From: Phorcus lineatus
Lineage: Eukaryota > Mollusca > Gastropoda > Trochida > Trochidae
DNA length: 64,000 nt
NCBI GenBank assembly: GCA_921293015.1
Contig: OV121096.1
Coordinates: 11,907,000-11,970,999 of the forward strand
Reading direction: 5' to 3'
This document shows positions 5,048 to 61,040 of this stretch, in pieces. Every line of letters begins with the position of its first letter. Position 1 is the first letter of the stretch. The position numbers and the translations under genes were made by a program. The notes beneath the pieces are model-generated. The model searched no databases and was not told the DNA's origin. It saw nothing but the letters and a program-made list of their open reading frames with translations.

Positions 5048-5086
5048 AAGGGAGATAACTCCCTGGTGATGAGCCCGGCCCCTGTC

Positions 5087-5872: not shown

Positions 5873-6270
5873 GTTTACAAATCAGAGATTGTAATTGTAC
5901 GGGTGTATATCCGCATTCATTAGGTTCATTAACTATACCACGGAATGCGATACATGAGTTTGCAAGACAGGTACCTAGGGTCCAGACCGTTGACAAAACT
6001 GTGAAGCATAACAACATCCGGTAGGCTATGGCTGTCGAGGCGGTCCATTTTGAGTACGGGCTGTAAGGGCAGACTGATTCGACTTGTTTTAGTCCTCTAG
6101 GATGGCGGAATACCCCCGTTCTGGCTCTCCACTGTTCTAGACTGTCTCCCATCTTACTTCAGACACTTTTCAGCGAATAAAGTTGTCTTATATGGCTTTT
6201 ATATACATAATTGTCAAGAGACAATTTTCACCAACATCTACTGCTAACGCATGCGCACAACCAAAGCTAT

Positions 6271-15107: not shown

Positions 15108-15286
15108 AACAGAAATTGAACGAACTCTGCTTGGTGCAGTACCAAGCAGGCCAGAGACCACCACCTAAGAAGGCCAGGTACCAGAACATTTCAACCCGGT
15201 TGAACAATTTGAAGCAGCGTCTGACCGCTGGTGCCATCCCGCTGACGTATGCTGACGCAGCGTCGCGTTTGTTAAAATTAAAGTAA

Positions 15287-15700
15287 ATTAAATTATACAT
15301 CACAATATTATTTATGAATTGTATGTATTTATTAAGTTATTATGTATTATGTATGTATGTAAATGATTCTTGGTGCTATTTTCATTTATCAAATGTATAT
15401 CCATAGAAGTGCTATATTCACTGTTCAATGTATTTATTATATGTGCATATGTATCAAACTGAATAAAATTATTCCTTTTACTTCGTTTCTTTGTCGTTCC
15501 TGATTCCAGTACAACTCTGAGACTGTAACAACATGTTAATCCTATTGTTTAAGGCCACTGATGCACATCCTCCAGGTCCACAACATTTGCATTCGTTATA
15601 TTTTTAGACTTAAGTATATGTCTAACAGTCGCATACCAAAATGGGTACACTTGTAGTCATTGCAAAAAACGAAAATCTCTTGATTATAGGATTTTAATGT
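15287..15700. other. MULE 3' flank, no further gene
   Basis: AT-rich. AATAAA near 15463 could serve the MULE transcript. A terminal inverted repeat was looked for and not recognised. Confidence 0.4.
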
Positions 15701-33685: not shown

Positions 33686-34139
33686 CTCTTGTTAAATAAA
33701 AATATAAGTTCATTTCTCTCAAGGAGGAAGGATATCCGGGTTTGATCTATCACTCTCTTCTCTTGGAAAAAGTTGGGCAGAATCTCAAAGCTTACATTGG
33801 GTAGAGAAAATCTATTGCACTCGCATGTTTGACATGAAATAGTCTCTCTTTATACAAATGCCCTTCGAAATTCAAGTACTTATTTATACTATTAAAAATA
33901 TCTTTTCCACGAACCACACCTGAGAGGAAACCAATGACATGTTATAACGCGAATGTTTATAAGTCTTTTAAATCATGTAGCAATTGTCGGTTACTATGCA
34001 CCTGTAGGATGTGCCAATAGACACCAAACCGAAGGTCTTTTGAGTTTAAACAGCGAATTGTGTGATTGGTTCAGTTCCCTTCGATACCGTCTGTTTATCA
34101 AATCAAATAAGGAGATTCAGTTGCTTCTTCCCTGACAAC
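33686..34139. promoter_or_regulatory. Upstream region of the EGF-like gene
   Basis: Probable distal promoter region of the gene starting at 34201; no recognised factor site. The short frame at 33953-34135 has no domain. Confidence 0.3.
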
Positions 34140-34145
34140 GTATTG

Positions 34146-34152
34146 TATAAAA
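34146..34152 (+). promoter_or_regulatory. TATA box of the EGF-like gene
   Basis: TATAAAA lies 55 bases before the ATG, which would put transcription start near 34176 and leave a 5' UTR of about 25 bases. The context (GC-richer 'ggggcagggtcgtgg' between box and ATG) fits a core promoter. Confidence 0.6.
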
Positions 34153-34200
34153 CGGAAGAGTACAGGGGCAGGGTCGTGGACTTCACCTGGAGCTTCAAGC

Positions 34201-37200
34201 ATGCGTCTGATTTGTCTTGTGTCCGTCCTTGCAGGTAAATATCCTTTACATCTGAAAACTATCTTATTTTTAGATTGAGCAGCACTAATCCCGATTACAT
34301 ATTATTAAGAATTATATCTTCACAACCTTTATCCTATTTCCATGGTATCATAAAAATATGTTGCTTTTTTCCAACACAAAGTATTTAAGTAAGTCGATGA
34401 TTAAGGTCAAATGCACTTGTGATGCTGTTATCCAAACGATAATGTATTCGCACTTTGGAAGGCATAGATATACATGTATGTCACCTGTACATCATAAACA
34501 GACATGAAACAACCAGATGTTCTATTTATGAGCTTAAATTTCGGTTTCGAAGAAAAAATCCATGTGACAGTACTTGGAGCATCTTCCTACGCAGAGCTTA
34601 ATTATTGCCAGTCTCGAACTGTCCAAGTTAACCGTTGCTGCCCACCGAAGACTTTTCTGGCTTGATACGAGCGCCCCCTCTGGCGATTTTTAGTAATCTA
34701 CAGTAACCTCCTTTACCATGGCAAATCGGCGACGCCGTGTCATTTGCGATACAAACAAAATGGGCGCGCCCGTTGAAAGTGACCTGTTTGATCAGATTAC
34801 AAAGAAGTTTGGCATTGCAAACCTTTCAAACAAGGAGATAGAGTTCATAAATGTATTGAGGGACCAAAAGATGTTTTTGTTGTTGTAAGGACCGGGTGTG
34901 GAAAATATTTAACAATGAATGTGCCCCTATATTTTTCAAAGGAAAGTATGAAGGAGGTCCATGTTATTGTAGGATTTGCCATTATACATCAACAAAATGA
35001 GTGCAGTTTACACATTGTTGATTTTTTCAAATAGCCGCACAATTATAAAAAAATATGTGAAAATGCAATTCTATCAGGGGAGAATATATTTTTAGACATA
35101 CGATGAAAATTTCTTTTCTGTGCAATGTATAATTACAGAGGTGTCCCTATAGTTTAATAAATAAATTGATATCTGTAAACGAAACAAAGTAATATTATCA
35201 TTAAAAGAAATTAAATGTAATTTTTGTTCATATAAAGACAAGATAAAAGCATTTGTAAAACTAAAAAAAATACTGGTCCAAAAGTATGTTGTCTTAGGTT
35301 TTACCGGGCATTTATTTTTAGCGGGTCAGCTTTGACACCATTTCAACAAATTTATATTTTTTTACAATAAGTCTTATGTTAACATTTTAGTTATTTATTT
35401 CGGAATAATGTGAACATTGTATTCAATAATGTTTTATCTCTATCTTGAAATAAGATTTTTACAATTTATTCTAAACTTTGTAATATCCTCTTTATATATG
35501 GCAGAAAGGTAAATTTGTTTATTAGGATCTTATTTTTTTAAGTAAATGGAATGTTAAATTCATCACATGTGAAACCTTCAATGCATATTTCATGTGCACA
35601 AGTCTCATCATTGATTAACCAACTGTTCATATACACACGTACAAGTTCATATGTTCATATACAAAGGTAGTGACTGCAAGTAAAATGTATTCAATGTTTC
35701 GGTTCAACGGGTATTCAATAACATTTTTGCAAGCACAATTGACAAAGCAATTGTACTGTCAATTTTCTCGAGGTGTTTAAGTTTACCGAAGCATTTTAAG
35801 AAAACATTCTTTGACAGGCGGCTGTCCTATATAAGGTTGTAGCACAATACTTGCGCTAATTGACTATAAACATGAATGAACTTGAGCTTCCCTATCTAAC
35901 AACCTCAATATATATGTCAATAAGTTTTCAAAACAGAAAGATTTTTTTCACTCGCGACATAAAATGGTATATGTTGTGACTAATTAAAAATCCGAAATTT
36001 GAGAAATGTTAACAAAAAAGGTGTTGGATCTCAAAATTTGTTAAAACACTATTTCTTCTGGAGCCAAATTCCATGGTAAGGTTTAAGGTACACGAAGAAC
36101 AATGTAATCACACATCTCAAATCATGCATGATTATAGTATTGAAGTTTTATTCCAAAGGGCTACACCTTTATGATATAAATTACCTATGAGATTCGTTCA
36201 GTTTGATTGATCTGACCTTTAAGTTTTGTTTCACTTGGTGCTGTCCTAGATTTAAATTTGTCGTATTGGGCAACCTTTATTGTAGTCATTTTGAATATAT
36301 CTATTGTTGTAACTTAAGTTAAAAGACTGGACCCATATTTTCGAAGCTCTCTTAGTGCTAAGATTGTCTTAAGGCAATGTTAATGTATGGTACTTACGAC
36401 TATCTTAGCACTAAGAGAGCTTCGAAAATCTAGGCCCTGGTTCTTAAGGTATCTTTGTTTAACTTTGAAAAATAACAACGCTCACATTTCGTTATATATT
36501 GACTTCAGTTTAAAGTATAAGTAAACAGTCAATCCGTAACTTAAAAAACTATGATCAAATGCTTCAAGGCAGTTTGGAAAAATATAGCAGTAGGCATATA
36601 TAAATATAGTAAATAAATCATAGTCTAGATTAGTGGCCGCGAAACTTTACCTATAATTCTGCATTCTGAGCACATATCATAATACATAACAATGATCATA
36701 TCAGATGACCGGTAAGATTGACGTTAATTAAGGAAGTTGCATAAGGTGAAATGTTTGTTTTCCATGGTTTATATGCTGTATTTTAACGTGTTGGAAAATT
36801 TATCTCAACACTCCGCCACCTCTCTTGTTTAATTTCGTATCACGTTCAAAATAACGGAGATTTATAATGAGTATTTTCAAAATAAATCTCGAAGATCATT
36901 TTTTAAGTTCGGACAAAATTCAGATGCACCTTCGTGGCTTGAACTGACATATGCTGCAAGTTATTTGAGAATCATTAAGTTGTATTAGTATCTAACAATG
37001 GTTCAAATATGTTAATTAATAATTGACATGAATCGCAGTGGTAACAATTTTAAGCTTTACATCAGTTCAAAAAGTAGAAGAAGCAGAAGCTAGGAAATAT
37101 TATATATATAAAGTCATTCCTGCAAAACTAGAAAACGTTTTTTGCTATGTTTGGCAAGAGGTCATCGGCGTTTGTCCTTTTGACATTGCCTGTATTAGTG

Positions 37201-40200
37201 TTGTCATTTTGAAAAAAATTAGTATTGACGCAGACTGTAACTAATAGACTCCTAGAGCAAACATGTAAGGCCAGAAGACCTGCCAGAGTAAACTATGGAA
37301 TGGCAACACCCGTCAGTGCCGTAACTTTTCTCAAACTCTCCGGCTTTACGTCTAAGATGGGAAATGATAAAGATGATTGTACGTGGCGCCTACTGGACGA
37401 AGATTTTTTCCATTTAAGGCTATAAACATATGTTAAAAGTGTTAAAACGAAATTGAAAATAATTTGCTACCACATGTTCGGCATTATATTATCTTTGCAA
37501 TACGACAACACACTTCAATTGAGCTCGAAAAAGACGGAAGGTAAAGAAAAGATGTCTGATCCTGCAATGAATCCGAAACCGAATCCAATCGACCATGTGT
37601 GAAATCGTCTTGACAGTGAAATCAGACGAGTAGATTGTCCTTATGCTATAATGGATCTTTCAATTTTCTTGTAAATATAGTGAAAAACAGGCCGTGTATC
37701 GTGCCATTCAAGCGAATCATTTGCCCTGAAGTTTCTTACGTTTGGTCTAATGCAAAAAAGTAACTTCGTTATCTTTGAATCGTTTAATGTCAAAACACTT
37801 TGATGCATGAATATAAATCGCCTTTACAGTTAACAGTCGTATTCCCCCTTATGCAGAGAATAATACACTGCTATGGATATCTTATTTAGCTCATTTATAT
37901 CTACTGCGCGCATTAATCTTTACCAGCAAACAATTACATGTATGTCGATCATTTAATCACTGCACTTAACTTGAGACCTTAACAACAAACCTGAGACAAG
38001 TCTCCACAAACATTTGCACCTTATAAACTTTAGTAATAACCATGGTTACATTTAAACGGGATCATTATAATTTCACCATACTAACATTCTGCCAGATTTA
38101 TTTCATTTTATTCCAGCAATATTTGCAACGGCAACTGGAACAAGTTGTGTTAGTGAAAATAGCTGTGGCACCGGTATGGTTTGTGCTGGACCAGACGGCA
38201 CCAAAGTTTGCGCCGGTAACTATGCATCTCTTTTCTTTACGTAAGTAATTACTATAGATAGTACTTCAAATGACATAACCGTTAACAATTGTTTAATTGT
38301 GTACGGGATGCTGGTGAAGGTAGAAGCAAGGTATATATGTAGTGTTAACACAATCCATTTACAAATTGATCCCAATGTTTAGAACAATACATCTTTTTGA
38401 TGAAATGGTGACTAATTCAAAGTTTCCCAAAATGATTTTACATATGAATTCAGTTAGCCATACTTAACATTAAGTAGCTAAAACAGCTGCTGAATGTTAG
38501 TGGGGCGACATCACAGTCATCTGTAAAGAACTAAGTTGTTATCTTAAACTTTGACGTCCTCAGACTTTATCTAGTGATTCATGTAATAATGATAGACATG
38601 TCTCTTAAACAGCGGTTTAATGACAACTACAAAATGTAATTAACCTTCTCCTGCTCTAAGGACATTTTTGTTTTGAGATTTAACGCGTTAAAATGTCAAC
38701 GAATCGGTTAAACAAGATGACATAAACATACATAAGAAGCAGTTACCCTTTTACTTGATCAAACAAGTGTCTTTTATTAATCTTGATCTCTGTCAAGCCA
38801 TTTTAATACTAAAACATTTCCTTTTGTGTTTTCAGATGACCCTTGTAAACAAGGTAGCCCATGCGGTGCGCACGGAGACTGCACACCCGACTTAACAAAA
38901 CAAATACCATCTTCAATATGCACATGCAGAGATGGGTATGGAGGGGGAACATGTGCAGATGGTGAGAATTCGATTGTCACTAATTAAAGGTTTTACGTCA
39001 ATCAAAGATGGCTTTAAAAGTACTCTTTGTTTGATTCAAATAAGATAGTTTATTTTCATCCATTCATCCATCCATTCAAATATACCATTCATGCATACAA
39101 ACATACAGTTTACTTTTGTGTTGATTTGATATACTTAACCTTTCTTAACAATACTGAGCGAACAATCATATGATCTAATTTACCTATAAGGACACTAGTG
39201 CTTTAAAGAAAGTATACCATTTGACCAAACATGGAGAATAAAGGTAAGCAAAAATAGAAGAGCATTTGTTCAACATAAACAGAGTAGTTAATTCTACAGC
39301 AAACGTACACAACTTCAATTTAAATAAAGTCGAAAGTAACGTTTGACAGAAACCATCAGACAAGTGCTATCATTATCTATAGTTTCACAGATTCAAACAT
39401 GTTTGCATTTCTTGTACAATGTCATCAAATTTTAAAATGACAGTGTGAGGGACACCAACATACCCCAATTCAAGAATATCAATTGACAACGTAAAACGAC
39501 GGTTGACGGCGGACGTGACATGATGCCATTAATGTATAAAACAGTATTCCAGCTGTTGAGTGGTGACAGGTGGAAGTCTGAGGATTTGTCAAGAAAAGTA
39601 GTCCCATAAATATTCATGTCTGGTCACAGAAAATAAACGAAGTTGGCGTGATGCGAAAGGGCGTTTGTCCCTGTTAAGCTGTGTGATTGCCTTGCATTAC
39701 AGTGTTAGTAGACACTCCAATGCGGTCAATACAAGCTTCATTTTCAAATCGCAACAGATCTCTCTTTACCCTATAACACTACAATATTCAAAGGTAAGGA
39801 CTGAACACTAAAGGGATTATAAGTCATTGACGCGTCTGTAAACACGTGTTTGGGTGTCAGTTCTTTGCAGATATAACCTACTCTCATCTATGAACCTCAA
39901 GCGTTGCACATTATCAAAATGGCAACGTCTTATCCTCCTGACCCATGTTTATTGACGTCGTCTTTTTGAAGAGTCAGATACGCTTTGCGGTAGGGTCAAT
40001 TTGCTCGAACCAAATCGCAGCGTAGTCCAAACATATCTACTTATGTACTACTTGAGGTGTCCCAGTGCCGTAGATGATGTTGCAGTCACAAACGTTTTCC
40101 CAGATAAAGATCAGATCAGCAGGCGTAATCACACGTGGTCGACCAGTCATTGGATTGCCAGCTGAATGGACTGTATTTCTAAGTGCTGTTTTGTACCAAC

Positions 40201-40813
40201 AAAATACGCATTTCATGGTAAATCAAAAAAAGCGAATTTCGGATTTTACGTTAACGTTATTTTAATGTCATGTGGTACCTTGTATCGATCTTTGCTTGCA
40301 GACAGGATTTACACACTTTTCTTTACTTGTGACACAAGGCTCTATATGAATTATTTTTATTTGTTTGAACGTTTTAGAAATTGTTTTATGTAATTACTTT
40401 CTATTGAGTACTTTAAACAATGAACTGAGAAAAAAGCTACAAGGAATGAGATGATTTAACACCTGATGGTTGTTAAGCGTGTTTGAATATTCTACATGTA
40501 TCTGATAATGAAATTCTATGTATTGTTCAAGCCAACAACTCCATGATTTTTAATATCGTTGCAAGGGTGTTTTGGATATTTGTGTTTTACATTTAATTAT
40601 GCAATATTACAGATTAATTATGTTTATTTGTAAGCCCCAAAGAGATTTTTTAATATCAGTTCACCAATTTCATACACATATTATAAATTTTACAATTACA
40701 GTTCCCGAGTGTACCACGTCGACAGACTGTGCTGTAACTGCTAAACCGGAATGCAAAAAAGAAGACGGAAAACAGTCTGTGTGTGTAGCAAGTGAGTGAT
40801 TCTTAAACAGTCG

Positions 40814-40862
<49 letters not shown>

Positions 40863-43800
40863 CTTGCCCTGTTGAGTACCCTGTTTTAAACATGTATTAA
40901 ATGTTTGCATTTCTGTAACCCATGATACTGTATCTAATTCGTTTTTATGTGTGAAATCTTTTTGACTGAAACTAGAATACAAAATCTTAACATAATAAGT
41001 ATTTTCTCACTCATATGACTTTATTGATAAGCAAGAAGATAAAAAATAGTTCGGAGGATGGATTCTAAAATTAGAACTGAGTAACGTAGTTTCCTATCTT
41101 TGGATGATGATTTTCAATATTGAGATCTAACGGTGTTACAGTCTTTCATCCAAAATCTTAATGAAATGAATACTAGAGAATAAATATCCAAATCAAATAT
41201 GATTGAAATTGGTGAACATTTCGTACAAATGAATGTCAAGGCCATTGTTATGGCCGACAAGACAATCGCAAAGCAGATGATTTTTTATATAATGTCTGCT
41301 AGTACTTATAGAAATAATAATTAGGTGCTGTTCTCATATTGTGAACATGTAGTTCGATGTCGCCGATCGAATCGAGCTCTACATTGGTGTTGTCACCATT
41401 GCTGGAATCAATTACGATGTTAAACGGTGAGTTTTTGCTGTTTTTCGTGAGTGGAGATTTTGGCTTGAAAATCTGGCGGTAGCGATTTTCGGGGCGTCGT
41501 TGCATGTAACTTTTGAAATAATTACCCGATTTTGACAATCCATAGCTCGTTGTGTAGGGAAATCATTTAGCTTTCGAATCGTAGTGAACAATTTGTCCAG
41601 AAAAATTATTTTGGGTGCGAAAACTGACTTTGTTCGAGCATGGGGTGGTTTGGTCGTTACATCCCTTTCTTTTTATATAGTAGCAGGGTAGGGTCTATGG
41701 GTATATATGTCTTTCTAAAGCTATTTCTAAGCGATAAACGCCCCTGTGATTCTTTGTGCATATGGTTCATTCCCAACTGGTGGTATGACATCACGAGGTG
41801 CCAGCGCACTGGGGCAATTGTAACCTATTAGTAATCCAACCTCACATTTGCTAATTGGCATCAAATGACCTGCAATTTCCTCCAAATGAACCACATTCTT
41901 GGCTTTTCTGGTGTTGGGATGTGGTTTCGGTTGGCTGGCATGACATCACGAGCATAGGCCGGAGGCAAAGAAATCTTGTAAGAGCTGTCAAATCCTCGTA
42001 CCTCCAAACCATCAATTTTCTTGCTCATTATCAGTTGGTCCTTTGCGAGCATAGTAGATAAGGCTAGCTTTACATCTGTGCCTTGTACATCTAAAGCTTG
42101 ACATATATCTTCCAGAATGAAGGTGGTATCTGACTGGGTGTCAAGCATGGCATATACAAGTCTTTCGTTCTCAGGGTTGTCTCGATGGGAAAGCCATACC
42201 GGTACTGTCAGGGTGCACTTGGCACCATTACTTTCCTGATGGCTCACTTCTGCTCTCGATGCAGTGGCCTTTAGATCGGTAAATTCTAACTAAAATGTTC
42301 AAAATGTCAAACAAATATTGTCTACAATATTAATTAAGCAATGTTCATTTCCTTTCCGGGTTTCACTTATCAATCCATGTCGAAGGGCCTCCCACAGTCA
42401 AGTGCTGCTATGCCGAGCGATGCTTGGCCAAACACAAAGGGAATTGGTGCCTCCCGCTGTCTGTCTGCTAACCCTTCACTGCATGTCGCCCAACTGTCCT
42501 CGTTATAACGCGTTCTCCTCGCTAACAAATTTATCACTGTGGAAGCTGCATGTATCCTCGTTATAAGGCATTCCCGCGCTCTTTAGCCCATCACTGTAGT
42601 GAAAGCAACTATCCTCGTTAAAACGCGTTTCACACAGACAATATCTCACTTGTCGAATTCAAAGGTCACATTACTAATTCACAAAACAGTATCTTATGCC
42701 ATTTCAAATCATATCCAATTGCACATTACTCACAGTTTTGTCCATTGAATTGTCCTTATAACGAAGTGTCCTTCACTGAGCACGAGATTATATAATGTAA
42801 CGTTAACGGGCCTTCCACACTACAGAAATGACTTGGTTTCCGGTTCACTGAAACCACCATGAAACGACATGGAAACCAGTATTTCCACTTGGTATCCAGA
42901 TAGATTTCTATAGTTTCATGTTGGTTTCCATGAAAACTGAAACCTACTTTCGCCCCAGATCCGGATGGTATCCATCACCGTTCTTTACACATTCTTCCAA
43001 GTAGAATCCACTTGGTTTCCGTGATTGAAGTTTCATGTTGTTTTCCATGAAACTGAAACCTACTTTTGCCCCAGATCCGGATGGTATCCATCACCGTTCC
43101 TTACACACCTCTCCGAGTAGGATCCACTTGGTTTCCATGATTTTAGTTTACTGTAGATTTCCACTTGGTTTCCTTGTTTAGTCAGTTTATTGTATGTTTC
43201 AACCTGGTTTCCATATTCAGGTTTATTGTAGGATTCAACTTGGTTTTCGTGTTTTGTTAGTTTTTCGTAGGTTTCAAACTGGTTTCCATATCCTGATATA
43301 TTGTAGGTTTCAACTTGGTTTCCGTGTTTTGTAAGTTTATCGTAGGTTTCAAATTAGTTTCCATGTAGTGTTTATTGTGTCTTATGTAGGTTGTACAATG
43401 AACAAACACATTAATTACCATAGAATATGTATTGCGATAAAGACAAAAAACATTCATGGAAAGTTAAAATACCTACAAGGTAAAATGTAAGTGTGAATTT
43501 ATGGTGGTTCACAGTGTATATTCATCCAAAGGTCCAAATTCCTCCTCTGAATAACTACAGACATGGTTATTGCACTAGAGAATTTATTTGTCATCACACA
43601 ATCTAAATCTATTGTATATCGCCATGCGTCACAGTTCTTTCCTTGCACCAACCAACTTTCATCAAAAGAAAAACAATGCACGGAATCCCAAGGGGAGTAA
43701 CTCAACGAATTATATCTAATGAATACCATAACAAAACATACTGCAGTTACAAAGGTGTTGAATCTCAAAATTTGTTAAAAAAGTATTTCTTCTGGAGCCA

Positions 43801-45296
43801 AATTCCATGGGAAGGTTTAAGGTACACGAAGAACAATGTATCACACATTTTAAATCATGCATGATTATGGTATTGAAGTTTTATTCCAAAGGGCTACACT
43901 TTTATGATATAAACTACCTATTAGATTCGTTCAGTTTGATTGATCTGACCTCTAAGGTAAGATAGTTTGTTTTCAACAATTCATCCATCCATTCAAATAT
44001 ACCATTCATGCATACAAACATACAGTTTACTTTTGTGTTGATTTGATATACTTAACCTTTCTTAACAATACTGAGCGAACAATCATATGATCTAATGTAC
44101 CTATAAGGACACTAGTGCTTTAAAGAAAGTATACCATTTGACCAAACATGGAGAATAAAGGTAAGCAAAAATAGAAGAGCATTTGTTCAACATAAACAGA
44201 GTAGTTAATTCTACAGCAAACGTACACAACTTCAATTTAAATAAAGTCGAAAGTAACGTTTGACAGAAACCATCAGACAAGTGCTATCATTATCTACAGT
44301 TTCACAGATCCAAACATGTTTGCATTTCTTGTACAATGTCATCAAATGTTAAAATGACAGTGTGAGGGACACCAACATACCCCAATTCAAGAATATCAAT
44401 TGACAACGTAAAATGACGATTGACGGCGGACGTGACATGATGCCATTAATGTAGAAAACAGTATTCCAGCTGTTGAGTGGTGACAGGTGGAAGTCTGAGG
44501 ATTTGTCAAGAAAAGTAGTCCCATAAATATTCATGTCTGGTCACAGAAAATAAACGAAGTTGGCGTGATGCGAAAGGGCGTTTGTCCCTGTTAAGCTGTG
44601 TGATTGCCTTGCATTACGTCAACGTCTTATCCTCCTGACCCATGTTTATTGACGTCGTCTTTTTGAAGAGTCAGATACGCTTTGCGGTAGGGTCAATTTG
44701 CTCGAACCAAATCGCAGCGTAGTCCAAACATATCTACTTATGTACTACTTGAGGTGTCCCAGTGCCGTAGTTGATGTTGCAGTCACAAACGTTTTCCCAG
44801 ATAAAGATCAGATCAGCGGGCGTAATCACACGTGGTCGACCAGTCTTGGCTTGCCAGCTGAATGGACTGTATTTCTAAGTGCTGTTTTGTACCAACAAAA
44901 TACGCATTTCATGGTAAATCCCAAAAAGCGAATTTCGGATTTTACGTTAACGTTATTTTAATGTCATGCGGTACCTTGTATCGATCTTTGCTTGCAGACA
45001 GGATTTACACACTTTTCTTTACTTGTGACACAAGGCTCTATATGAATTATTTTTATTTGTTTGAACGTTTTAGAAATTGTTTTATGTAATTACTTTCTAT
45101 TGAGTACTTTAAACAAGCCCCAAAGAGATTTTTTAATATCAGTTCACCAATTTCATACACATATTATAAATTTTACAATTACAGTTCCCGAGTGTACCAC
45201 GTCGACAGACTGTGCTGTAACTGCTAAACCGGAATGCAAAAAAGAAGACGGAAAACAGTCTGTGTGTGTAGCAAGTGAGTGATTCTTAAACAGTCG

Positions 45297-45366
<70 letters not shown>

Positions 45367-45418
45367 TCTCTCCCTCTCACTCTCTTTCTGACTCCCTAAA
45401 TCTCTCTCTCTCTCTCAC

Positions 45419-45499
<81 letters not shown>

Positions 45500-46335
45500 C
45501 TCTTGCCCTGTTGAGTACCCTGTTTTAAACATAGAAGAATACCTTAAATGTTTGCATTTCTGTAACCCATGATACTGTATCTAATTCGTTTTTATGTGTG
45601 AAATCTTTTTGACTGAAACTAGAATACAAAATCTTAACATAATTAGTATTTTCTCACTCATATGACTTTATTGATAAGCAAGAAGATAAAAAATAGTTCG
45701 GAGGATGGATTCTAAAATTAGAACTGAGTAACGTAGTTTCCTATCTTTGGATGATGATTTTCAATATTGAGATCTAACGGTGTTACAGTCTTTCATCCAA
45801 AATCTTAATGAAATGAATACTAGAGAATAAATATCCAAATCAAATATGATTGAAATTGGTGAACATTTCGTACAAATGAATGTCAAGGCCATTGTTATGG
45901 CCGACAAGACAATCGCAAAGCATGTTGTTTCACTTGGTGCTGTCCTAGATTTAAATTTGTTGTATTGGGCAACCTTTATTGTAGTCATTTTGAATATTTC
46001 TATTGTTGTAACTTAAGTTAAAAGACTGGTTCTTAAGGTATCTTTGTTTAACTTTGAAAAATAACACATTTTGTTAGATATTGACATCAGTTTAAAGTAT
46101 AAGTAAACAGTCAATCCATCAAATGCTTCAAGGCAGTTTGGAAAAATATAGCAGTAGGTATAAATATATAAAGTAAATAAATCATAGTCTAGATAAGTGG
46201 CCGCGAAACATGTTCTTATAATTCTGCATTCTGAGCACATATAATAATACATAACAATGTTCATATCAGATGACCGGTAAGATTGACGTTAATTAAGGAA
46301 GTTGCATAAGGTGAAATGTTTGTTTTCCATAGTCG

Positions 46336-46412
<77 letters not shown>

Positions 46413-47625
46413 CTTGCCCTGTTGAGTACCCTGTTTTAAACATAGAAGAGTTTTTATGTGTGAAATCTTTTTGACTGCAAAGATGGATACACGGGGTATA
46501 AGTGTGAAAGTATGTCTCATTCATTCGAATACTTCATTAGAAAAGTTAACGCATTACATATAAATTTGAAGTAAAATTAGACTTATAGAATTAAGTTATG
46601 AAACAGTGTATCACTGAACACTTATGAAATGATATCATTAGCTACGAGTAAGTCGTAACGAATTGAAAATAGAAGGATTGAACATCTTATATTCCTCTCT
46701 GTCACAAAATATGTAACAGAGAGGAATTAATTCTAACCAAAGATGTTTCCTTCATAATTGTTTTAACACAATTTGACCTTCGAGTGTTTAAAAGAAATTC
46801 ACAGGATTAGTCAAGGAATACTTATAAGGATATTGATGGACATCATCTGTATATATATGAGTTGATATTTTGTAATGTGTGTGCTTTATCAGCATTATAT
46901 CGCTTAAATTTTCAGAGGGCGCTGGGAACCTAGGTAGATATTTTTTTTTCTTTTATGGATATAGTTATTCTGTAATACTTTATTTAGAACATACGTGTAA
47001 ATTTCTTCCTCTCAGCAAATGTATAAGTCAATTGCTGTTGTTTTCACGTTGCCATTCTGAAATCTTGTAAAATTCTATGTGATATTTTAGTAATACATGA
47101 ACTACAATTCAGGATTGTTTATCTTGTTCGGAGTCCTTAACGCCTGTTAGTTTTTCTTATTCAAAAGATTTCATTTATGTTTTTAATGTCAATATTACAT
47201 AATGCCAACGCATGTTTTTACGAATTTATCAATTGAGATAATTAAAGTAGCAATCGCAATAGACAAGAGGATATTTTTATATAGGTACAACATAATTAGT
47301 AGTTATGGTGAACATAATTTTCGTATGATAAGCATTTTTAGTAGCTGTATATGTATTATTCGGAGTTTTGTTGTTATTGTAGTATAAATATATATAGTTT
47401 ATATTGAGGTAATATCGGGTGGCTACCGAAATCACCATGTTTTTGATACACTATTTCTGTATTTCGCTGTACTGTATTTCTTTAATCATTCTTAATGGGT
47501 CCAATTTGATATGATTACATATATTTTCATTGTCATTCATATCAATAAATACTTGTTTGTTTCTGCTAGTTGCTGCCGCTCCTGGATTAGTTATGGCTCT
47601 ACTTCTCGCTGCATTCAACCTCTAG
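34201..47625 (+). CDS. Secreted or GPI-anchored Cys-rich protein with one EGF-like domain
   Basis: Exons (GT-AG, all phase 1): 34201-34234, signal peptide 'MRLICLVSVLA'; 38117-38215, end of signal ('AIFATATG') plus a four-Cys module ('SCVSENSCGTGMVCAG'); 38836-38961, EGF-like domain with six Cys ('DDPCKQGSPCGAHGDC', 'ICTCRDGYGGGTCAD'); 40702-40791 and its duplicate 45185-45274, second four-Cys module ('VPECTTSTDCAV', 'QSVCVA'); 47570-47625, 'AAAPGLVMALLLAAFNL' and TAG. The product is 134 residues with one copy of the module, 164 with both. The short hydrophobic C-terminus after small residues looks like a GPI-attachment signal; secretion with loss of the tail is the alternative. Function unknown: cell-surface ligand, adhesion or immune role are only guesses. 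A TATA box and AATAAA frame the gene. Confidence 0.75.
34718..35000 (+). pseudogene. RecQ-like helicase N-terminal relic in intron 1
   Basis: ATG at 34718 opens 'MANRRRRVICDTNKMG', then 'LFDQITKKFGIANLSNKEIE' (a Q-motif-like region), ending at TAA 34886-34888. In the neighbouring frame from 34868 the sequence continues 'KDVFVVVRTGCGKYLTMNVP', which matches the Walker A region of RecQ-like helicases (usually TGxGKS), with Tyr in place of Ser. One frameshift thus separates the halves. Such helicase fragments are abundant in molluscan and cnidarian repeats. No helicase motifs beyond Walker A were found; 35.0-36.0 kb is AT-rich. Confidence 0.55.
36012..36790 (+). repeat. Source segment of an intron-1 duplication
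   Basis: Matches two separated pieces downstream: 36012-36217 corresponds to 43755-43957, and 36222-36790 corresponds to 45918-46332, at high identity. The intervening part of the downstream copy is the exon-bearing unit. The source copy differs by a palindromic insertion at 36332-36438. It is non-coding. Confidence 0.75.
36332..36438. mobile_element. Palindromic MITE with empty paralogous site
   Basis: About 105 bp made of two near-perfect inverted arms ('ttttcgaagctctcttagtg' and its complement) around a short centre. At the paralogous locus (about 46020-46035) the flanks join directly ('aaaagactgg' to 'ttcttaagg'). 'ctgg' occurs on both sides of the insertion and may be the target duplication. 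No coding capacity; it depends on an unknown transposase. Confidence 0.75.
37150..37640 (+). pseudogene. Tc1-like transposase relic in intron 1
   Basis: Frameshifted pieces match the Tc1 order: 'TVTNRLLEQTCKARRPARVN' (helix-turn-helix end, about 37228-37290), 'TWRLLDEDFFHLRL' (about 37380-37425, where the DES block is expected) and 'MNPKPNPIDHV' followed by a stop and 'NRLDSEIRRVDC' (about 37570-37640, the PxxNPIExxW block). All three are damaged. Separate from the minus-strand Tc1 relics at 39.4 and 44.3 kb. Confidence 0.6.
39045..41282 (+). repeat. Exon-bearing duplicated unit, copy 1
   Basis: Contains a Tc1 relic, exon 40702-40791 of the EGF-like gene, a (CT)n array (40819-40861) and intron sequence. 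Copy 2 lies at 43961-45920 in the same orientation and is nearly identical by eye. Relative to copy 1, copy 2 lacks about 39704-39925 and about 40428-40632. Confidence 0.85.
39425..40175 (-). pseudogene. Tc1-like transposase relic (copy 1)
   Basis: Minus-strand reading gives 'GRPRVITPADLIFI' (about 40150-40105), 'LRFIDESRLYLQRTDTQTRV' and 'YRRVND' (about 39905-39825; DES contains a catalytic Asp) and, with shifts, 'HEYLWDYFS' and 'QILRLPPVTTQQLE' (about 39615-39540), the region around the third catalytic residue. Stops and shifts are frequent. The order matches Tc1-family DDE transposases. Confidence 0.6.
41640..42290 (-). pseudogene. BEL/Pao retrotransposon protease fragment
   Basis: Minus-strand frame 41861-42247 contains 'LTVPVWLSHRDNPENERLVY' followed by 'AMLDTQSDTTFILEDICQ', the retropepsin-like site of BEL/Pao elements (DTQSD), then 'LEVRGFDSSYKISLPPAYAR' and 'NHIPTPEKPR'. 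After a frameshift it continues 'CEVGLLIGYNCPSALAPRDV' and 'PPVGNEPYAQRITG' (about 41820-41730). These blocks precede the RT in BEL/Pao polyproteins. No LTR, gag, RT or integrase was found nearby, so this is an isolated piece between the two exon-bearing units. Confidence 0.75.
42827..43375 (-). repeat. Minisatellite region
   Basis: Two tandem units of about 117 bp (starting near 42913 and 43030; both contain 'ccagatccggatggtatcca') are followed by several shorter units built on 'aggtttcaacttggtttcc' to about 43370. On the minus strand the short units read as repeating 'METNLKPTI'-like peptides (43257-43457), but no promoter or homologue supports a gene. Confidence 0.65.
43755..43957 (+). repeat. 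Left part of the intron-1 segment copy
   Basis: Copy of 36012-36217. It stops where the second exon-bearing unit begins (about 43961). The right part resumes at 45918. Confidence 0.75.
44342..44870 (-). pseudogene. Tc1-like transposase relic (copy 2)
   Basis: Duplicate of the relic at 39425-40175 with a further internal deletion of about 220 bp that removes the DES block. Cannot encode transposase. Confidence 0.6.
45185..45274 (+). CDS. Duplicated Cys-module exon of the EGF-like gene
   Basis: Encodes the same 30-residue four-Cys module as 40702-40791 with, as far as I can read, no nucleotide change in the coding part. Both splice sites are kept. Because the exon is 90 bases and phase 1 on both sides, inclusion adds 30 residues and the junction codon becomes ATT (Ile) instead of GTT (Val). 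Whether transcripts use one copy, the other or both cannot be told from sequence. Confidence 0.75.
45299..45497 (+). repeat. Long (CT)n microsatellite
   Basis: Mostly (CT)n with a few ATCT and CACT interruptions, just 25 bases after the donor of the duplicated exon. The paralogous array at 40819-40861 is only about 43 bases. A third array at 46337-46408 lies in another partial copy. Confidence 0.9.
45918..46332 (+). repeat. Right part of the intron-1 segment copy
   Basis: Copy of 36222-36790 without the palindromic MITE. It ends at 'gttttccat' and is joined directly to a further partial copy of the (CT)n region. Confidence 0.75.
46333..46485 (+). repeat. Third partial copy of the (CT)n segment
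   Basis: 'agtcgatattctctct', the array, then 'gctcttgccctgttgag', 'taccctgttttaaacat' and 'tgtgtgaaatctttttgac', the same sequence that follows exon copies 1 and 2. It contains no exon. Confidence 0.8.
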
Positions 47626-47927
47626 AAAATGGCTTGCTGTTAATCTATAAATGTGTCGTGAAGCCTCATTTTTAACAATTCGGCGACACAACAAATCAAA
47701 ATATAATTTGTTTCCAAAGTAAATCTAACACACATTGACAGAAATGATGTGCAAATATATCCTTGACCCAACATTATTCGAAAATCTTATATTTTCAAAA
47801 TTTGACGTCATTATTACACCATTTAAGGTTTGTTTCATATGTAATCATTACTTCTCTTTGATTTGAGATTTTAATTAAGTTTTCCCGTGTGCTTTTGTTT
47901 GTTCAGTTTGTGAGTGTGATGAGACCT

Positions 47928-47933
47928 AATAAA
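47928..47933 (+). promoter_or_regulatory. Polyadenylation signal of the EGF-like gene
   Basis: AATAAA about 300 bases after the TAG at 47623-47625; the first canonical signal downstream. Implies a 3' UTR of roughly 320 bases. Confidence 0.55.
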
Positions 47934-47949
47934 CTCGAAGGAAATTATA

Positions 47950-48105
47950 GCGTAACTTTGTTCAATCTATCTGAAAGGGCTAAATTACCCCTGTTTCTAC
48001 ATTTGACCCGAGAGATGACAATACTGATGACGTGGTCCCTCCAAAGAACCAACTGACCAAGTAGATGTCATCTACCCTCTCACATACTTTGAACTTTTGT
48101 ACCGC
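47950..48105 (+). repeat. Short downstream duplication, copy 1
   Basis: Shares 'ttcaatctatctgaaagggc', 'acatttgaccc' and 'atgacgtggtccctccaaag' with 51094-51240. Lies just past the polyadenylation signal. The nature of the repeat is unknown. Confidence 0.65.
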
Positions 48106-48429
48106 TTAGGATGTAAAACGCCTTAATTATCGAGATTTATTAAAAGAAATATTATATAAATCTGTGTTGGACTTTTTCTTTACAATTGTGTAATATTACA
48201 TTCTATGCCTTCATAGGTATAATTGTTAGATTTTGTTTAAGATATTCACTTACACCTGGTTGAACGGCTCTTAGTTGTAGCGTAAATTTCCTGTCGGTTT
48301 TGTAATGCACACATATTTGAATTATACAAATCGCGTATAGAATCAGACCATCTTCCAATCGTAGTACGAGTAAACTCAAATTATAATAGAAACGCTGTTA
48401 CTATGGCGGAAATTGTGAAAATATAGATA

Positions 48430-49745
48430 ATGACTAGATAGGCCAGTTCAGGTTCAAGAATTGCTAGACAAATCTGTTGATTGTGCTCTGACTAGTATAC
48501 ATGATGGCATATCCTAAATGATAGAAGAAATCTGTACTGCAGCTTCATGTATGACAAAAAAGGTAAAACAATCCAAAGATATTTCAAAAGTTGGATTGAC
48601 TAAGATTCCGCAAAACTGAAAACTGACAGTTGCAAACTTCTCACTACGTTCGTAAATTTAAAGATAATCGATCATTTGACCAATACTGGATCGCAATGAG
48701 ACAGTCTAATTCTCTCCGCAGGAAGAAACGCCTTGAAAATTTCAAAGAAAAGCAAATATCAATAGAAAAAAGCATAGCTAACAAATCTGGTCCGAATTTA
48801 GACGTTAAACTAGTATTGAAATAAGGCAAAACAATATCCAGATAGACGATTTTTTCCGCTTTAGACAACTTAAGCATGCCTGGATCTGCTTTTCAGCATC
48901 ATACTAGAAAATGGTTCATGGTAATACATGAAGTACAATTCAAGTTTGTTTCCCTGGTTTGGAGTCTTTAACGTCTGTTGGTTTGTTTTAGTCAAACGAG
49001 TTCAGTGTCCCGCATTCATTGACGATTGCTATCTTTGTTAAACGCCACTTTCAAAAGTCATTAACTTATATCACGGCTGCTAGTATTATTGAAGGGAGAA
49101 TGCCCACAACACCAATCTAGCTATGCAATGTGCTGAAACCTGCGAGCATTGGCTGGAACTGGCGAACCATGGGTAGTAGTGCACTGAAATTGGACTTAAA
49201 CCTTACTGCGTGTAGAACAGTTCTCTATTCTGAATAAGAAAATTCTATTTTGGTAAATCAATTTGCTCCTTGAGGAATACGAAACTATTACATATTCCAG
49301 ACAAAGTTGTCGTGCCCCTGGGATTGGAATCCACTGCGCTAGTCAAGAGGTATTTGAAAAATTGTATTTGAAAATATCTATGCCATTTTATTCGATTTGC
49401 AAAAGCGTTAGATTTTGTACAACAAAACAAACGTTCGTCCGTATTTCAATGTCTTGGTCACTGTAATAAATGAGTAAACTTATATCAGTGCCTTCTTATC
49501 ATTCGCTACGATATAAATATATTAAAAAATGTTAATATATCCATCAATGTATTAGAAACATTTTGACTATCGTTAGCAGCAAAAATAAAATTTTGTTACA
49601 AAATCTTGCCATGATCTTTCATCATGCAATGTTGTTTAAAAATGATGTTTTATTGCTGTAAGGTGAATTTATCTCTCTACATTGCTCTAATCTATATATG
49701 CACTTTAGACATGTGGCCATGTCAGTATGAAATAAAGAGTGGTTG
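48430..49745 (+). pseudogene. LINE fragments, same family as 7.0-9.1 kb
   Basis: Three collinear pieces. A linker-like part before RT ('SHYVRKFKDNRSFDQYWIAM', 48640-48700) is followed by the RT block 'AKALDFVQQNK' (about 49395-49430; compare 'VDVAKAFDS' at 7.53 kb). The 3' end, 49485-49745, aligns with 8870-9105, including 'cttatcattcgctacgatat', 'ttacaaaatcttgccatg', 'gtcagtatgaaataaag' and a TTGATTGATGA tail. Large parts between the pieces are missing. Confidence 0.6.
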
Positions 49746-52500
49746 ATTGATGATACACACCTACATGTAGGAACGATATGCCCTTTGTAAAATAAGACTG
49801 GATATATCCCATATCTTGACATGACGTAATCTGAGGTTGATATGTAGGTATAGACCTAGGTAGTTACGAGAAATCCAACCTCTCCTGACGTCATACATTT
49901 TGTTGCAAGTGAAACCTCATATCGTTGTCTGGATACCGGTAATTTTGGCTCCCCTCGACTTTCAGTATCCGTCTTCGGTTAAAAATACATGTCAGTGTTT
50001 TTATTACAATTATTACTCTGTGATTCGCATAAATGTTATCAGGTTGGACGATATAAAAGGTTGATATCTGATATCTCCCTAGTTCAATATGAATGGTTTC
50101 GTACAAGGAACATGACAAGTTTTCATTTATTTATTCTTTCATAAAGAACACATTTTACAACTTCCGCAGATATAAGGTCCTGAAAAACTTACATTTGTGA
50201 AATAGACAGGTTTACAGTCCGACACGCAATGATTTTCTTGTGTTGCAGACATTTGAAAATCTCTGCAACCCTGGGAGGAGTTGCGACCTTATTCCCCGTT
50301 GTTTTACTCCAGTATTATACCAGCAAAAACACTTAATCCATTAAATTTAAATCATAACAGAATACAAAGCTATACACAGCTTACATTGAAAAAACTCAAT
50401 TTTCATTTCAATGTTGTTAAACCAAATGACAAATGCTCATGTCAACGCATCAAAACTTTCAATGTGAGCGAAAATTCCTTTATTGTTTGTAATTAATTCA
50501 AACTAAAAAATAAAACTAAATGAATTCTGGTCCACGAGTGGGATGTGCATTCAGATCCTTTAAAAATATCATTTACCTTGATTCAACATAGTGTTTCATA
50601 ATTGAAATAAGACATAAAATCTAACTATAATGTGCATAGTATTTGCCATACCATATATATCAAAGCAAAGAATGTGGTATGTTTAAAGTTGTAAAACTCT
50701 TACACAGCTTCTATAGTATAGATGATTGTTAGACTTTGTATCGAAAAACTGAAACTATCGGCGTCAAGCATCAAATGATATAGCTGAATCAATCCGTACT
50801 TTCGCGCTATCATCTTGTCAAAATAAAATAAAAACAGGTGTAAAAAATCACATGCTAAATATGTCCATTAAGCCGAATCTCATATTTTGAAAGAAAATAT
50901 ATGAAATTCAACTGAAAAATTGCATCATTCATTAGATACATGGAAATTGCTACCTTTATGTACATTTCTTACATGGAAAATCTTGATTATTCTAGTTTTT
51001 GTGATCTGCTTACGCTCTGACATTCCTCTGTTTTGTTCACTATAGTTGCTGTACATGTGGTTTGATAGATTAAAAGTTTTAAATTTAAACATTGCGTGTT
51101 CAATCTATCTGAAAGGGCAAAATTGCAACAATACATGTAGCAACATTTGACCCACAAGACGACGATACTAATGACGTGGTCCCTCCAAAGGATCAACTGA
51201 CCAAGTAAAGATCATCTACCCTCTCATACACGTTGAACATTACTCATTCGTCAATTGTATCAATTTGTCTAATAAACATTTCAATGCTACCACTATATTG
51301 GAGTTGTTATCGATAAGTTTCAGTAAACCTCACACATAGGCTGTACTCGTTGAAGATGTAAAATTCACTGGATTTACAACAGTTTACACCAGGTAGATGG
51401 ATATGATATTTGTAGTTTTTACAGAACGGGTTGAAGCCATACGCCGTAAATATTTATAAAACATAAAAGAACAGGCAAAACTGTAATAAAATAATATTTA
51501 AACAAGTCATGTAAACTAGCACTCAAGTTTTTAAGAAGTGCTAATGAAAATAAGTACATATTCAGCATATTCTTGTGCCAAAAAAAAGAGACTAATTGTA
51601 ATGTTTGCCAAATGACCGTGGACATAGCTTTGAACACTAAGAAAGGAACTTTATTTTTTTAATGAGTTCATATTTATTTTCAATATTCAATAAAAAAAAT
51701 TACCTGTTATGTTACCATAACTTTCTTATCAACTTTCCCCCACTGGTGAATTTGTCTATGAACGATATTTAGGGACAAACAACTTATAAATAGTCACGGT
51801 ACAACCTCATATCGAAACAAGGGCACATAAAATAAATTTATGTCACTCGAGATCAAGTCCATATTTCATGGTCATATTTGTATCATCGCGATCTCTCCAG
51901 GCAAGATTTATAGATTAAACTGATGTTCAGCTACAGCTGCGTTGTGAAAACATCCAAGTCGTATCAACTAATAAATTGGTGTATATATAATTTCATTTCC
52001 TGTAAAAAAAAATAATGCTCAATCTGGTTGAAAAAAACAACAAACCCTTTGTTACTATTTTTGAAAGGCACGCCTGATTTTATTACAGTGCTCATAATTC
52101 CCTATGTAAAATCATCATTTATTAAAATTTGAAAATTTCCACGAATTATGAACAGAACAATTCACAGACATTACTTTTGAATCAATATATTAGGGTTAAC
52201 ATAAGCATCTGCAATAAGATAGCAAACACATTTCAAGTAAAAATTGACAAACTAGTTAATCATGGTTCTACGTTATGATATATAATACGTTATTTACCAA
52301 AACAATATTTAGAAATGAAAATGTTCTGAGAAAATTAAAAAACATAAGTTTTACCGTCTTGGACCCCAGTGTATATGATATTTAAGTATGTGATAGAAAC
52401 ATTATGTTTATTCATCTAATCAAAACACCGTAAGTTTTGGCAGAAACATGATTAAATGATTCAAACTTTAGTGAACATCTATTTACCTGATGAAAGACAA
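49746..52500. other. No recognisable gene
   Basis: AT-rich non-coding sequence apart from the short repeat at 51094-51240 (copy 2 of 47950-48105). Short frames carry no domain. Confidence 0.5.
51094..51240 (+). repeat. Short downstream duplication, copy 2
   Basis: Paralogue of 47950-48105, same orientation, 3.1 kb downstream. No copy of the last exon of the EGF-like gene was found in front of it. Confidence 0.65.
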
Positions 52501-57784: not shown

Positions 57785-58205
57785 ATACTTGTATATAAAA
57801 ACTAGGAGAACAAATCTCTTACCTTGAAATGAAGTGGGAATCTAAGGTCAATATCACTGTATCTGAAAACTATCTACCAGACTGTTTTGCAGCAATAAAC
57901 CTTACTACAGTTGAAAATAAAGCCAGGAATTTCCAGTTTAAGTTTATCCATAGAATAGTCTCAACGATATCTTTTCTATGTAAAGGTGGTATTTGTCAGG
58001 ACAATATCTGTACCTTTTGCGGTAGAGAAATTGAAACATTTGAGCATTTATTTTATCAATATGAGAAACTAATTATAAAAACCTTACTTCATAGTTAGAA
58101 TCATGGTACCTCTCAAGAACTAGAATTAGCCTTGACATTGATATTACAAAATTTCTACTCGGGGACCCAAAGGCAAATGTGTTAAGAAATCACATTTTCA
58201 TTATT
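57785..58205 (+). pseudogene. L1/Tx1-like LINE C-terminal fragment
   Basis: Encodes 'KARNFQFKFIHRIVSTISFL', the zinc-knuckle-like 'NICTFCGREIETFEHLFYQY' (last Cys replaced by Tyr) and, after a shift, 'LDIDITKFLLGDPKANVLRN' and 'HIFIITK'. It aligns with 10740-11100 and is a second member of that family. Upstream RT and 3' tail are missing. Confidence 0.7.
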
Positions 58206-61040
58206 ACAAAATAATATATCAATAAAATTAGATTTACTTCCAATCTAATTCATTGCACAAAATATCACTGTCACTTAGAAAAGTACATATTTTTATAACA
58301 TTGCACCGTGAGACTCTTTCACTCTTGTACTCTGTAACTGTCCACTATCTCCTGTCTATATATATCACAATCTCTCAGTCTTTTATCTTTCTGGTTACAA
58401 CTATTTATCTTTTTATATGTTAAAATCATACAATTTGATTGTACCATTCTCTTGTCTGTAATTAAGCAGCCGTCTATATCAACTGTCCCTTTCCCGTCAC
58501 TTGCAAACCAGGTATCGAATATCACTGCATGGAGAACAGATGATTACATCAAGCCTAAATAATATCAGCTAGTATACCACACACTTGAATTCCCCAATTC
58601 TACCAGCAAAGGATACGAATAAAGGATGATATGTATAAGAAACTTGTTTCCATCACATACCCATGTTTCCAATCGAATAGATAAGGCAATAATGTGTGTG
58701 ACATGGTGGTCCAAAAGGAAATTACATGAAACATGTTTGTTTTAAAAGATATTCATTTTATGGTGATTAATGGAAACAACAAACTGTTAATGATTACATT
58801 GGTACCATTTATTGTACTGCCAAAAGTTAATGAATAAATGATGGACCCCTTAGCCTTTTTTTGAAAATGCCAGAATTGTAATGAGACACATCTCTCACTT
58901 GATTACGTTGTGTAGATATGATAAGTTTACATATTTATCTATTTCCCTGAAAAGTGTTTCTTTAAAAACGTGACTGTTTCAATATTCTAAATATGATGAT
59001 TTCGCCATTTATTCTTGCTTGTGAACTGAAACAGATTTAAGTTCAACAGCTTTACATTTAACTTGTCATCTTAAGAAACCTCAAGCACACGCGTATCAAT
59101 GTCTCAGAAGTCCTTAAAATACTGTCTTAGCTTGAATAAAGTCTTTTGTAGACGTGCACTTTAAGGATTTATTCGTTTTACCGTGACATCGTAGTGGTTT
59201 GATGCATTGATATTCTTAACAGTATTCACAAGAGATAGAAACTACATATTTGAAAGTAATACGATATAAAAGGCACGGCATCTTCAAATGCAAATACTTG
59301 CTTAGAACAAATAATGCATTGAATTGAGCACAGATTTAGTCTATAACGTATTTAGTATTGCAATGCAAATTACGAAATAATATTTCAAATTCGATATAAA
59401 TTATTACTTTGCTAAACTATAAGCATTGTGTAATATAGTTCGATGGGGCCAGGTTAATTTTTTTCGAGCCGATAGTTTATTTGTGAATTTAATACATAAA
59501 CATATCTCATATCTTTGGAGTAAAAATTTTACCATGTAAAGGGTTCATGTTAATAAAACGTGCCCTGAAAAGATTTCTGTTTTTATTTTAATGATTTCTT
59601 AAAGGCAGAGGTTCCCCAGAAGTTGTACAATTACATATATTAAAAATTAGATGGAAAAAAACATTAACGGAAGGTACCATTTAAGGTTATTTCTATTTCT
59701 GAACGTATAGGAACATTCAAAATATATTACAGTGTCTTATGTCGCTTATTTGTAAGAAAACAAATGTCATTTGCACTTTGAGATAAATCCAAAAGATTAC
59801 AAGTGAACAAGTACAACGTTAATTTGTCTGGAAACACTATCTGCATGTGAACAAATCCTCTTACATGTATGTTGTACATCACCATAAACACTAATACATC
59901 AAAGAATATATCAATATTCATTAAATGTACACTGTTACCCTACTTAAAATATTACTTCATCAAACAACAAAGTAAAGAAACGGCGTCTATGATCGTCTTG
60001 GAGAAGTTCAAACATCCACAAACAGAAAAAGACTAGAAATTATTATCTACATATATACATGTATCTTACTTTTAGTGCGCACAACACAGCCAGTGGGAGA
60101 ATAAGGTTATGTCCACTTCAAGGCGGGACTTGCTGAACTGAGCTAACCAATAAGAAGAGAGCTAATTTTCCATAGCTTCTTTCTAGTTCAATATTGAAAA
60201 TCAAGTGACATTTGATAAGAAATATTATGCGCCGTTGCTACAAACAATGTGACAAATAGCGACAAACCCCTTTGAAAGGCGGACCCTTCTCCTGAACCAG
60301 CACTTCGCATTTGGAGACGAATGAAAGCATTATGGATGTTGAGATTCGTAAGTTGATGACTGTTTTCATTTAACTGCATAAATGCCGTTTTGAGAATCGA
60401 GGCTTTTAGTTTGTGGCCATTTTTGTTTTATTGTCTGAAAGTTCATTTCCCTACCATCATTTTTGTTTGTTTTGTTTTAATTACTTTCTAACTTTATGAA
60501 TATGTCATGTAAAAGGTGGACTTAGTCGAGCATCATTTGTTAAATAAATATGATTACTTTAGGGGATAAAGAAAAACATACTATTACATCAATGTATATT
60601 CGCAGATATAAAATAGAATCGTATATTAACCAATCGTTGTATCATATCTACATTCTGGTAACTTCGTATTTCCATGATAACAAGAGTGAATCTACCTGCC
60701 ATCTGAATTATTTCAGTTGGTGTGAATACTGAATCCAGCAGTTACTGTAAAAGATGTTTTCGTACGCTGAATCAGAAGACGGTAATACCCTGAAGTAATA
60801 CTATGTTGTACTTTTGTTAAATAATCATTTTAGAATTTTAATGGTAAGTAAGAACATTTCAACTTAATTCATATACTAAGCATAGCTAACAGTACAGAGT
60901 GATCATAATCTATACCTTAAACGTCATGTGAAGATACAGTTACCTGTAAGTAGTGAGTTTACTATCACTGTAAATATCAGTGCCTGCTTTCATGGTATTG
61001 ATGGAATATATTGCCCATGCTCTCTGACTTATAACAAGGT
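58206..61040. other. No recognisable gene
   Basis: AT-rich spacer. Frames at 58319, 59727, 60188 and 60550 show no domain. Confidence 0.5.

Follow-up and report, generated by a model that had tools for sequence, protein, structure and literature searches.

The window, the whole 64,000-nucleotide stretch of DNA analysed here, is read as containing a small cell-surface protein gene on its forward strand; at least three more genes of its family stand in tandem with it, along with one relic. That the gene is real and has the anatomy described below, with its splicing predicted from the sequence, is given a probability of about 0.8. The predicted product has 140 amino acids, or 170 if both copies of exon 4 are used. 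Small GPI-type EGF surface proteins are an already known kind of protein, and no tandem family like this one was found in the literature among the matches listed. The unexpected part is a 3' element that was found only in the cluster. The gene itself was read by hand from exons of 18-126 nt, and neither six-frame ORF scans nor Pfam cut-offs on their own would reveal the local family around it.

Gene anatomy and coding evidence

An earlier note on this DNA had named five coding exon types. All of these exons are present in the window sequence, where they splice into an open frame of 134 amino acids with every junction GT-AG and in phase 1 (Table 1). The order of modules that it had described (predicted signal peptide, 4-Cys module, EGF-like domain, another 4-Cys module and predicted GPI-type tail) is supported as well. 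Counterparts among the paralogues exist for all five exon types, and paralogue A has them in the same order. Its exon model had overlooked the likely 18-nt exon and the half EGF exon, so the direct 45274/47570 junction that it had drawn is probably wrong.

Table 1. Predicted features of the window gene and its paralogues (window positions, except those prefixed C37)
Feature	Position	Strand	Evidence or counterpart
Promoter and short 5' UTR: ATTGG (inverted CCAAT), TATAAAA at 34146	34060..34200	+	alignment to D and A
Exon 1, signal peptide start MRLICLVSVLA	34201..34234	+	same 34-nt exon in D (MNLIGLVFAFA) and A (MTLMCRVSVIA)
Exon 2, signal peptide end and first 4-Cys module	38117..38215	+	counterpart in A at C37:11897199-11897321, with an in-frame stop there
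Exon 3, EGF1 (6 Cys)	38836..38961	+	exon of the same length in A
Exon 4, second 4-Cys module	40702..40791	+	counterpart in A with an 8-nt gap
Mosaic duplication of pieces of 36017-36777 and 39041-41275, plus a third piece of TC-repeat region	43751..46477	+	identity comparison
Exon 4 copy	45185..45274	+	90/90 bases identical, splice sites kept
3' half of second EGF exon, EGF2 (CKDGYTGYKCE), phase-1 donor gtatgt	46476..46509	+	whole in A at C37:11899637-11899741; EGF2 in C
18-nt exon GAGNL, predicted GPI attachment site	46916..46933	+	likely counterparts in A (15 nt), C and D (18 nt)
Last coding exon, hydrophobic GPI-type tail and stop	47570..47625	+	tail pattern matches in window, A, C and D
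Conserved 3' element (~137 nt), then ATTAAA at 48139	47958..48095	+	
Probable relic of a fifth family gene: six-base tail-exon stub and fifth 3' element (51097-51238), AATAAA 33 nt on	51046..51238	+	
Paralogue D: promoter, exon 1, microexon candidate, tail, 3' element	C37:11855871-11871682		
Paralogue A: promoter, exon 1, exon 2, EGF1, 4-Cys exon, whole EGF2 (105 nt), 15-nt microexon, tail, 3' element	C37:11890415-11901250		
Paralogue C: 4-Cys exon like exon 2, EGF2, four 81-nt 4-Cys exons, microexon candidate, tail, 3' element	ends C37:11995335		

A blind scan covered the forward and reverse strands of the whole window and looked for exons in phase 1-1 that carry at least four Cys and have fair splice sites. 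Five candidates were returned, all on the forward strand: the EGF exon, exon 4, the exon 4 copy, a longer variant of this copy and one inside a MULE-like ORF. The same scan of 30 second-order Markov sequences gave 12 candidates in total (0-2 each). Exon 2 was not returned by the scan, its donor scoring 1.4 against a cut-off of 1.5; a stronger, out-of-frame donor (3.5) lies 25 nt further on. GC content is 0.50 in the exons of the gene and 0.35 in its introns.

The TATA box claimed earlier sits in a promoter that is conserved in two paralogues. Promoter and exon 1 together align to D at 77% (173 columns, E 3e-32) and to A at 73% (175 columns, E 2e-22). The predicted N-terminus, MRLICLVSVLAAIFATATG, fits a signal peptide by inspection, and the hydrophobic core of exon 1 was detected in a scan. 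No selection signal was found in exon 1 (dN 0.24-0.35, dS 0.27-0.30).

By composition alone the tail exon is not beyond chance, with four tails on the forward strand and two on the reverse, where random sequence gives 1.7 per strand; it is accepted because copies of it exist in D, A and C. A tail pattern derived from the window gene, A, C and D had four matches in the genome, all of them these genes and all forward, and its reversed control had none.

The 18-nt exon likely belongs in the gene model, ahead of the tail exon. In the interval from the last Cys exon to the tail, the microexon candidates that pass the splice-score limits number one in A, one in the window gene, two in C and three in D. 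A small-residue peptide was picked for each gene (GAGNL, (G)AGNF, NGGSI and SGGNI, all phase 1-1), those of D and C being choices from three and two candidates, respectively. A first motif, too narrow for the other genes, matched the microexon of the window alone; a wide motif, built after these four had been seen, has four matches on the forward strand and none on the reverse in 164 kb. Independently of the choice of motif, the microexon and its flanks are 82% identical between the window and A over 33 bases (E 0.008). Joined to the tail, the microexon gives KGAGNLVAAAPGLVMALLLAAFNL, which by inspection fits the rules for GPI signals (small-residue site, short spacer and hydrophobic end) and, by the same rules, would be a better signal than the CVAIAAAPG of the earlier note. 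The GPI-type tail is conserved in four genes, and the microexon is likely in four.

The tandem cluster

The genome searched comprises 957,807,699 bases (957.8 Mb) in 74 contigs, with the window at C37:11907000-11970999, and the cluster scan took in 60 kb upstream and 40 kb downstream of the window. The cluster lies on one strand at C37:11.856-11.995 Mb and holds at least four genes, namely D, A, the window gene and C. The tail exon is common to all four, and promoter and exon 1 are common to D, A and the window gene. A genome-wide protein search gave five matches at E ≤0.001. Exons of the window gene itself account for four of them, and the fifth, an EGF exon, lies 9 kb upstream of the window; more Cys-rich exons on the same strand were found by scanning the flanks. 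When the window gene was set against its paralogues D, A and C at the DNA level, exons, promoter and 3' part were recovered. The comparison also recovered pieces of intron 1 in common with D (35033-35635 and 35661-35885 at 92%, 34580-34636 at 84% and inverted), which are taken for transposon copies.

Flank searches found neither exon 1 of C nor the middle exons of D. A 126-nt exon of C with 4 Cys, at about 11988696-11988821, was read by eye; the exon scans returned neither this exon nor the EGF2 of C. Four 81-nt 4-Cys exons stand in tandem in C at C37:11991198-11992609, with peptides 85-100% identical, and are read as a recent exon amplification.

Substitution rates were estimated by the Nei-Gojobori method, and dN is lower than dS for EGF1, EGF2 and every pair of tails. 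The values of dN and dS are 0.35 and 0.66 for EGF1 between the window gene and A, and 0.27 and 1.44 for EGF2 between A and C. Over all six pairs of tails, dN is 0.18-0.28 and dS is 0.54-1.40.

As far as the exact tail pattern and the protein search can tell, the family appears confined to the cluster. Weak EGF matches elsewhere amounted to 95 rows at E ≤10; 20 loci were taken from these, 18 of them outside the cluster, and 12 of the 18 have at least two EGF-type exons. Searched over about 3 kb at each of the 18 loci, a range beyond which farther tails would be missed, the tail expression matched once, and this match is without the hydrophobic end. In viral contigs, none of 15 pattern stretches was confirmed as a relative.

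A mosaic duplication within the gene

Compared piece by piece, exon 4 is read as copied by a recent mosaic duplication, the same event having cut EGF2. The duplicated pieces from 39041-41275 are identical at 650/660, 491/497, 70/70 and 378/379 positions, and those from 36017-36777 at 94, 98 and 87%. They are not collinear: the copy of 39041-41275 is nested in the copy of 36017-36777. The start of the EGF2 remnant coincides with an edge of the duplication, where its 5' half was lost. In six frames of the window, the EGF half-motif was found in the EGF2 remnant and EGF1 only, and 60 simulations gave three matches in total, one of them with a donor.

Every internal exon is phase 1-1, so the loss of EGF2 or the addition of an exon 4 keeps the frame. 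The adjoining copies of the family show symmetric-exon shuffling at different stages, with an exon doubled, a domain cut and a module repeated four times.

Two further observations concern the duplicated region. TC arrays at three related places, 40818-40864, 45301-45497 and 46340-46414, are longer in the duplicated copies, and they are probably linked to the rearrangement. Intron 1 holds an imperfect palindrome at 36319-36447 (77%), and about 36331-36436 of it is absent from the duplicated copy, which is joined up at 46026-46029. This has the look of a small transposon that is accompanied by its empty site.

A conserved 3' element

The 3' element lies 323-384 nt after the stop in four of four genes and is followed by a poly(A)-type signal. 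This signal is AATAAA, 25-44 nt past the element, in A, C, D and the fifth copy, and ATTAAA, at 44 nt, in the window gene. An AATAAA had been taken earlier to frame the gene; it is real and stands at 47928, but the signals common to the family instead follow the element.

Compared pairwise, the five copies of the element are identical at 0.82-0.91 (ten pairs). The 150-nt flanks reach 0.54-0.69, against 0.56-0.64 when shuffled (one shuffle per pair). For comparison, DNA identity is 67.5% for EGF1 between the window gene and A and 68-79% for the tails. Looser local alignments extend beyond the element (74% over 294 columns for window-A and 65% over 657 for window-C), so a little likeness survives in the flanks. 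Gene conversion could be an alternative cause of the likeness among the copies; the low flank identity argues against long conversion tracts, but not against short ones.

A genome search with the element gave five matches, all forward and all inside the cluster. A dispersed SINE as its source was rejected on this count of only five (five of five candidates scored, very common words skipped). No known RNA family matched at the gathering threshold across the window; a sub-threshold SNORD25 row at 47909-47989 (E 0.18 in a search to E ≤1, 20 vs 39 bits) reaches no further into the element than its first part. Over 164 kb, a covariance model built from the element gave 11 rows; ten of them are the five members and their reverse strands, and the other is a weak one at 59714-59795 (E 0.062). 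A structure proven by covariation was rejected, with 38 predicted pairs, none of them compensatory, and an unfavourable covariation term (+1.48). A closed hairpin is predicted for one sequence of the element (z -2.3), and a hairpin is suggested on this modelling.

A fifth gene probably existed around 51046-51238 and has now decayed. The stretch 48921-49004, which is 82% like 47090-47173, is seen as a further trace of it.

Proposed mechanism

A TATA promoter would drive the window gene, and the signal peptide encoded by exons 1 and 2 would route the product into the secretory pathway. The protein would fold as a 4-Cys module, EGF1 and a second 4-Cys module, the latter twice if both copies of exon 4 are used. 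The GAGNL exon and the hydrophobic tail would form a GPI signal that fixes the protein to the outer membrane leaflet. Modules may have been gained, lost and repeated between gene copies, phase 1-1 exons keeping the frame: the window gene is read as having lost EGF2 and doubled exon 4, and C has a 4-Cys exon four times in tandem. The element common to the cluster, ahead of the poly(A) signal, probably controls the mRNAs as a group, through stability, localisation or translation.

The anatomy supports surface display, and the favoured inference for the product is a GPI-anchored recognition or adhesion protein; the recognition role by itself is put at somewhat less than even odds. More tentative is the proposal that the 137-nt 3' UTR element, found only in the cluster family and preserved to a much greater degree than the proteins, serves as one mRNA switch that controls a whole set of GPI surface proteins, themselves changing fast and shuffling their modules; this is conceivable and rather doubtful. 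The element, which is better conserved than the coding exons compared with it, offers a concrete target for probing common 3' UTR control in a tandem family.

Domain identity and known systems

The EGF assignment made earlier fared differently in two genes: in HMM searches the window protein fell below every Pfam cut-off, and the EGF exons of A passed. EGF2 of A matches EGF_2 (23.6 vs 22.1) and EGF (22.1 vs 21.5), and its EGF1 matches EGF_Teneurin (25.0 vs 24.3). The EGF2 of C passes no Pfam cut-off. Six Cys ending in C-x-C-x8-C, together with a G-Y/F turn, mark an EGF-like domain and are found in this gene family, and an alignment of EGF1 from the window and A with EGF2 from A and C has common C-x-C, GY and G columns. 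A profile of these four EGF exons searched against PDB matched a Notch1 EGF (E 5e-4) and TGF-alpha (0.0036) among 35 sequences at E ≤1. The AF2 model of EGF1 is of low confidence (pLDDT 63.5, from the single sequence and with four rows). NCBIfam gave no rows for two proteins.

The 4-Cys modules of the window are weakly like a Dickkopf subdomain (E 0.058) and DX (E 0.17); they differ in that all of these matches lie below the Pfam cut-offs and that each module has only four Cys. Schistosome micro-exon genes encode secreted products, and their short symmetric exons are gained or skipped with the frame intact. The likeness to the cluster, on this description, is in (predicted) secreted products and frame-neutral short exons. 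In micro-exon genes, however, most coding exons are symmetric and ≤36 nt, whereas the cluster genes have one 15-18-nt exon each and domain-sized other exons. With one of five internal exons that short (one of four without the exon 4 copy), the window gene was not placed in this class. Ligands of the EGF receptor follow the pattern CX7CX4-5CX10-13CXCX8C; EGF1 of the window reads CX5CX5CX12CXCX8C, off this pattern, and membership was rejected.

EGF-CFC proteins such as Cripto are small and secreted and have one EGF-like domain; the family and its GPI anchor are described in the abstract of PMC6274844. The window gene is alike in its small, single-EGF type and its predicted secretion and anchoring; it differs in having 4-Cys modules on either side of the EGF domain and in its tandem cluster. 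Membership was rejected, since no model of the CFC domain, which in that family follows the EGF domain, was among three Pfam rows (E ≤10) or two rows (E ≤1) for the spliced protein. In pearl oyster, a bivalve, tandem EGF-like shell matrix genes are reported as a pair in passages of PMC4759782. The likeness to these, as they are described there, is in EGF-domain genes standing in tandem.

Alternative readings

The window gene could be a decaying copy whose EGF2 was destroyed by the duplication and any transcript of which would be a by-product, on its way to becoming a pseudogene as A seems to be. EGF2 is indeed cut at 46476, A as assembled looks broken, its exon 2 being interrupted by an in-frame stop and its exon 4 by an 8-nt gap, D is without detectable middle exons and the fifth copy is a relic. 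The window copy, however, has no stop or frameshift in any exon and has retained its splice sites, promoter, microexon, tail and 3' element, and decay is considered unlikely. An assembly error that mixed haplotypes, the true gene resembling A in its single exon 4 and complete EGF2, is likewise considered improbable. It would suit the 98.5-100% identity of duplicated pieces, the indels and long TC arrays at their edges and the absence of the 36331-36436 insert from the copy, as another haplotype could lack it. It agrees poorly with copied pieces that are not collinear, 39041-41275 lying within the copy of 36017-36777, and with older pieces that are only 87-98% identical.

Much less probable than either is a shed, growth-factor-like ligand, with EGF1 released to act on the EGF receptor. 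The small secreted-type EGF with its membrane-proximal tail and the EGF-ligand structures among the PDB profile matches would accord with such a ligand, but the first two Cys are spaced by 5 and not by the 7 of EGF-receptor ligands, and a long transmembrane segment with a cytoplasmic tail is missing. That the exons were picked by eye from non-coding DNA by chance is scarcely credible and was rejected: the tail alone is unremarkable by composition, but paralogous exons ordered on one strand and a conserved promoter and 3' element contradict a chance origin.

Other features of the window

ORFs or fragments of the non-LTR retrotransposon type lie at 2953-5881 (-), 7682-9016 (+), 13093-15336 (-) and 57799-58095 (+). 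In the part of the ORFs that was scanned, these stretches matched RVT_1, endonuclease and RNase H, with zf-RVT below its cut-off. A MULE-like transposase fragment at 11656-12324 (+) is just under the Pfam cut-off (24.3 vs 27.6 bits). The ORF at 41864-42289 (-), inside the gene, has no Pfam match above cut-off; presumably it resembles the peptidase region of Pao retroelements. Frequent TACATGTA is a habit of bivalve DNA and prompted a guess that the source is a bivalve or mollusc; in this window it occurs 12 times, against 0-5 times in 20 simulations.
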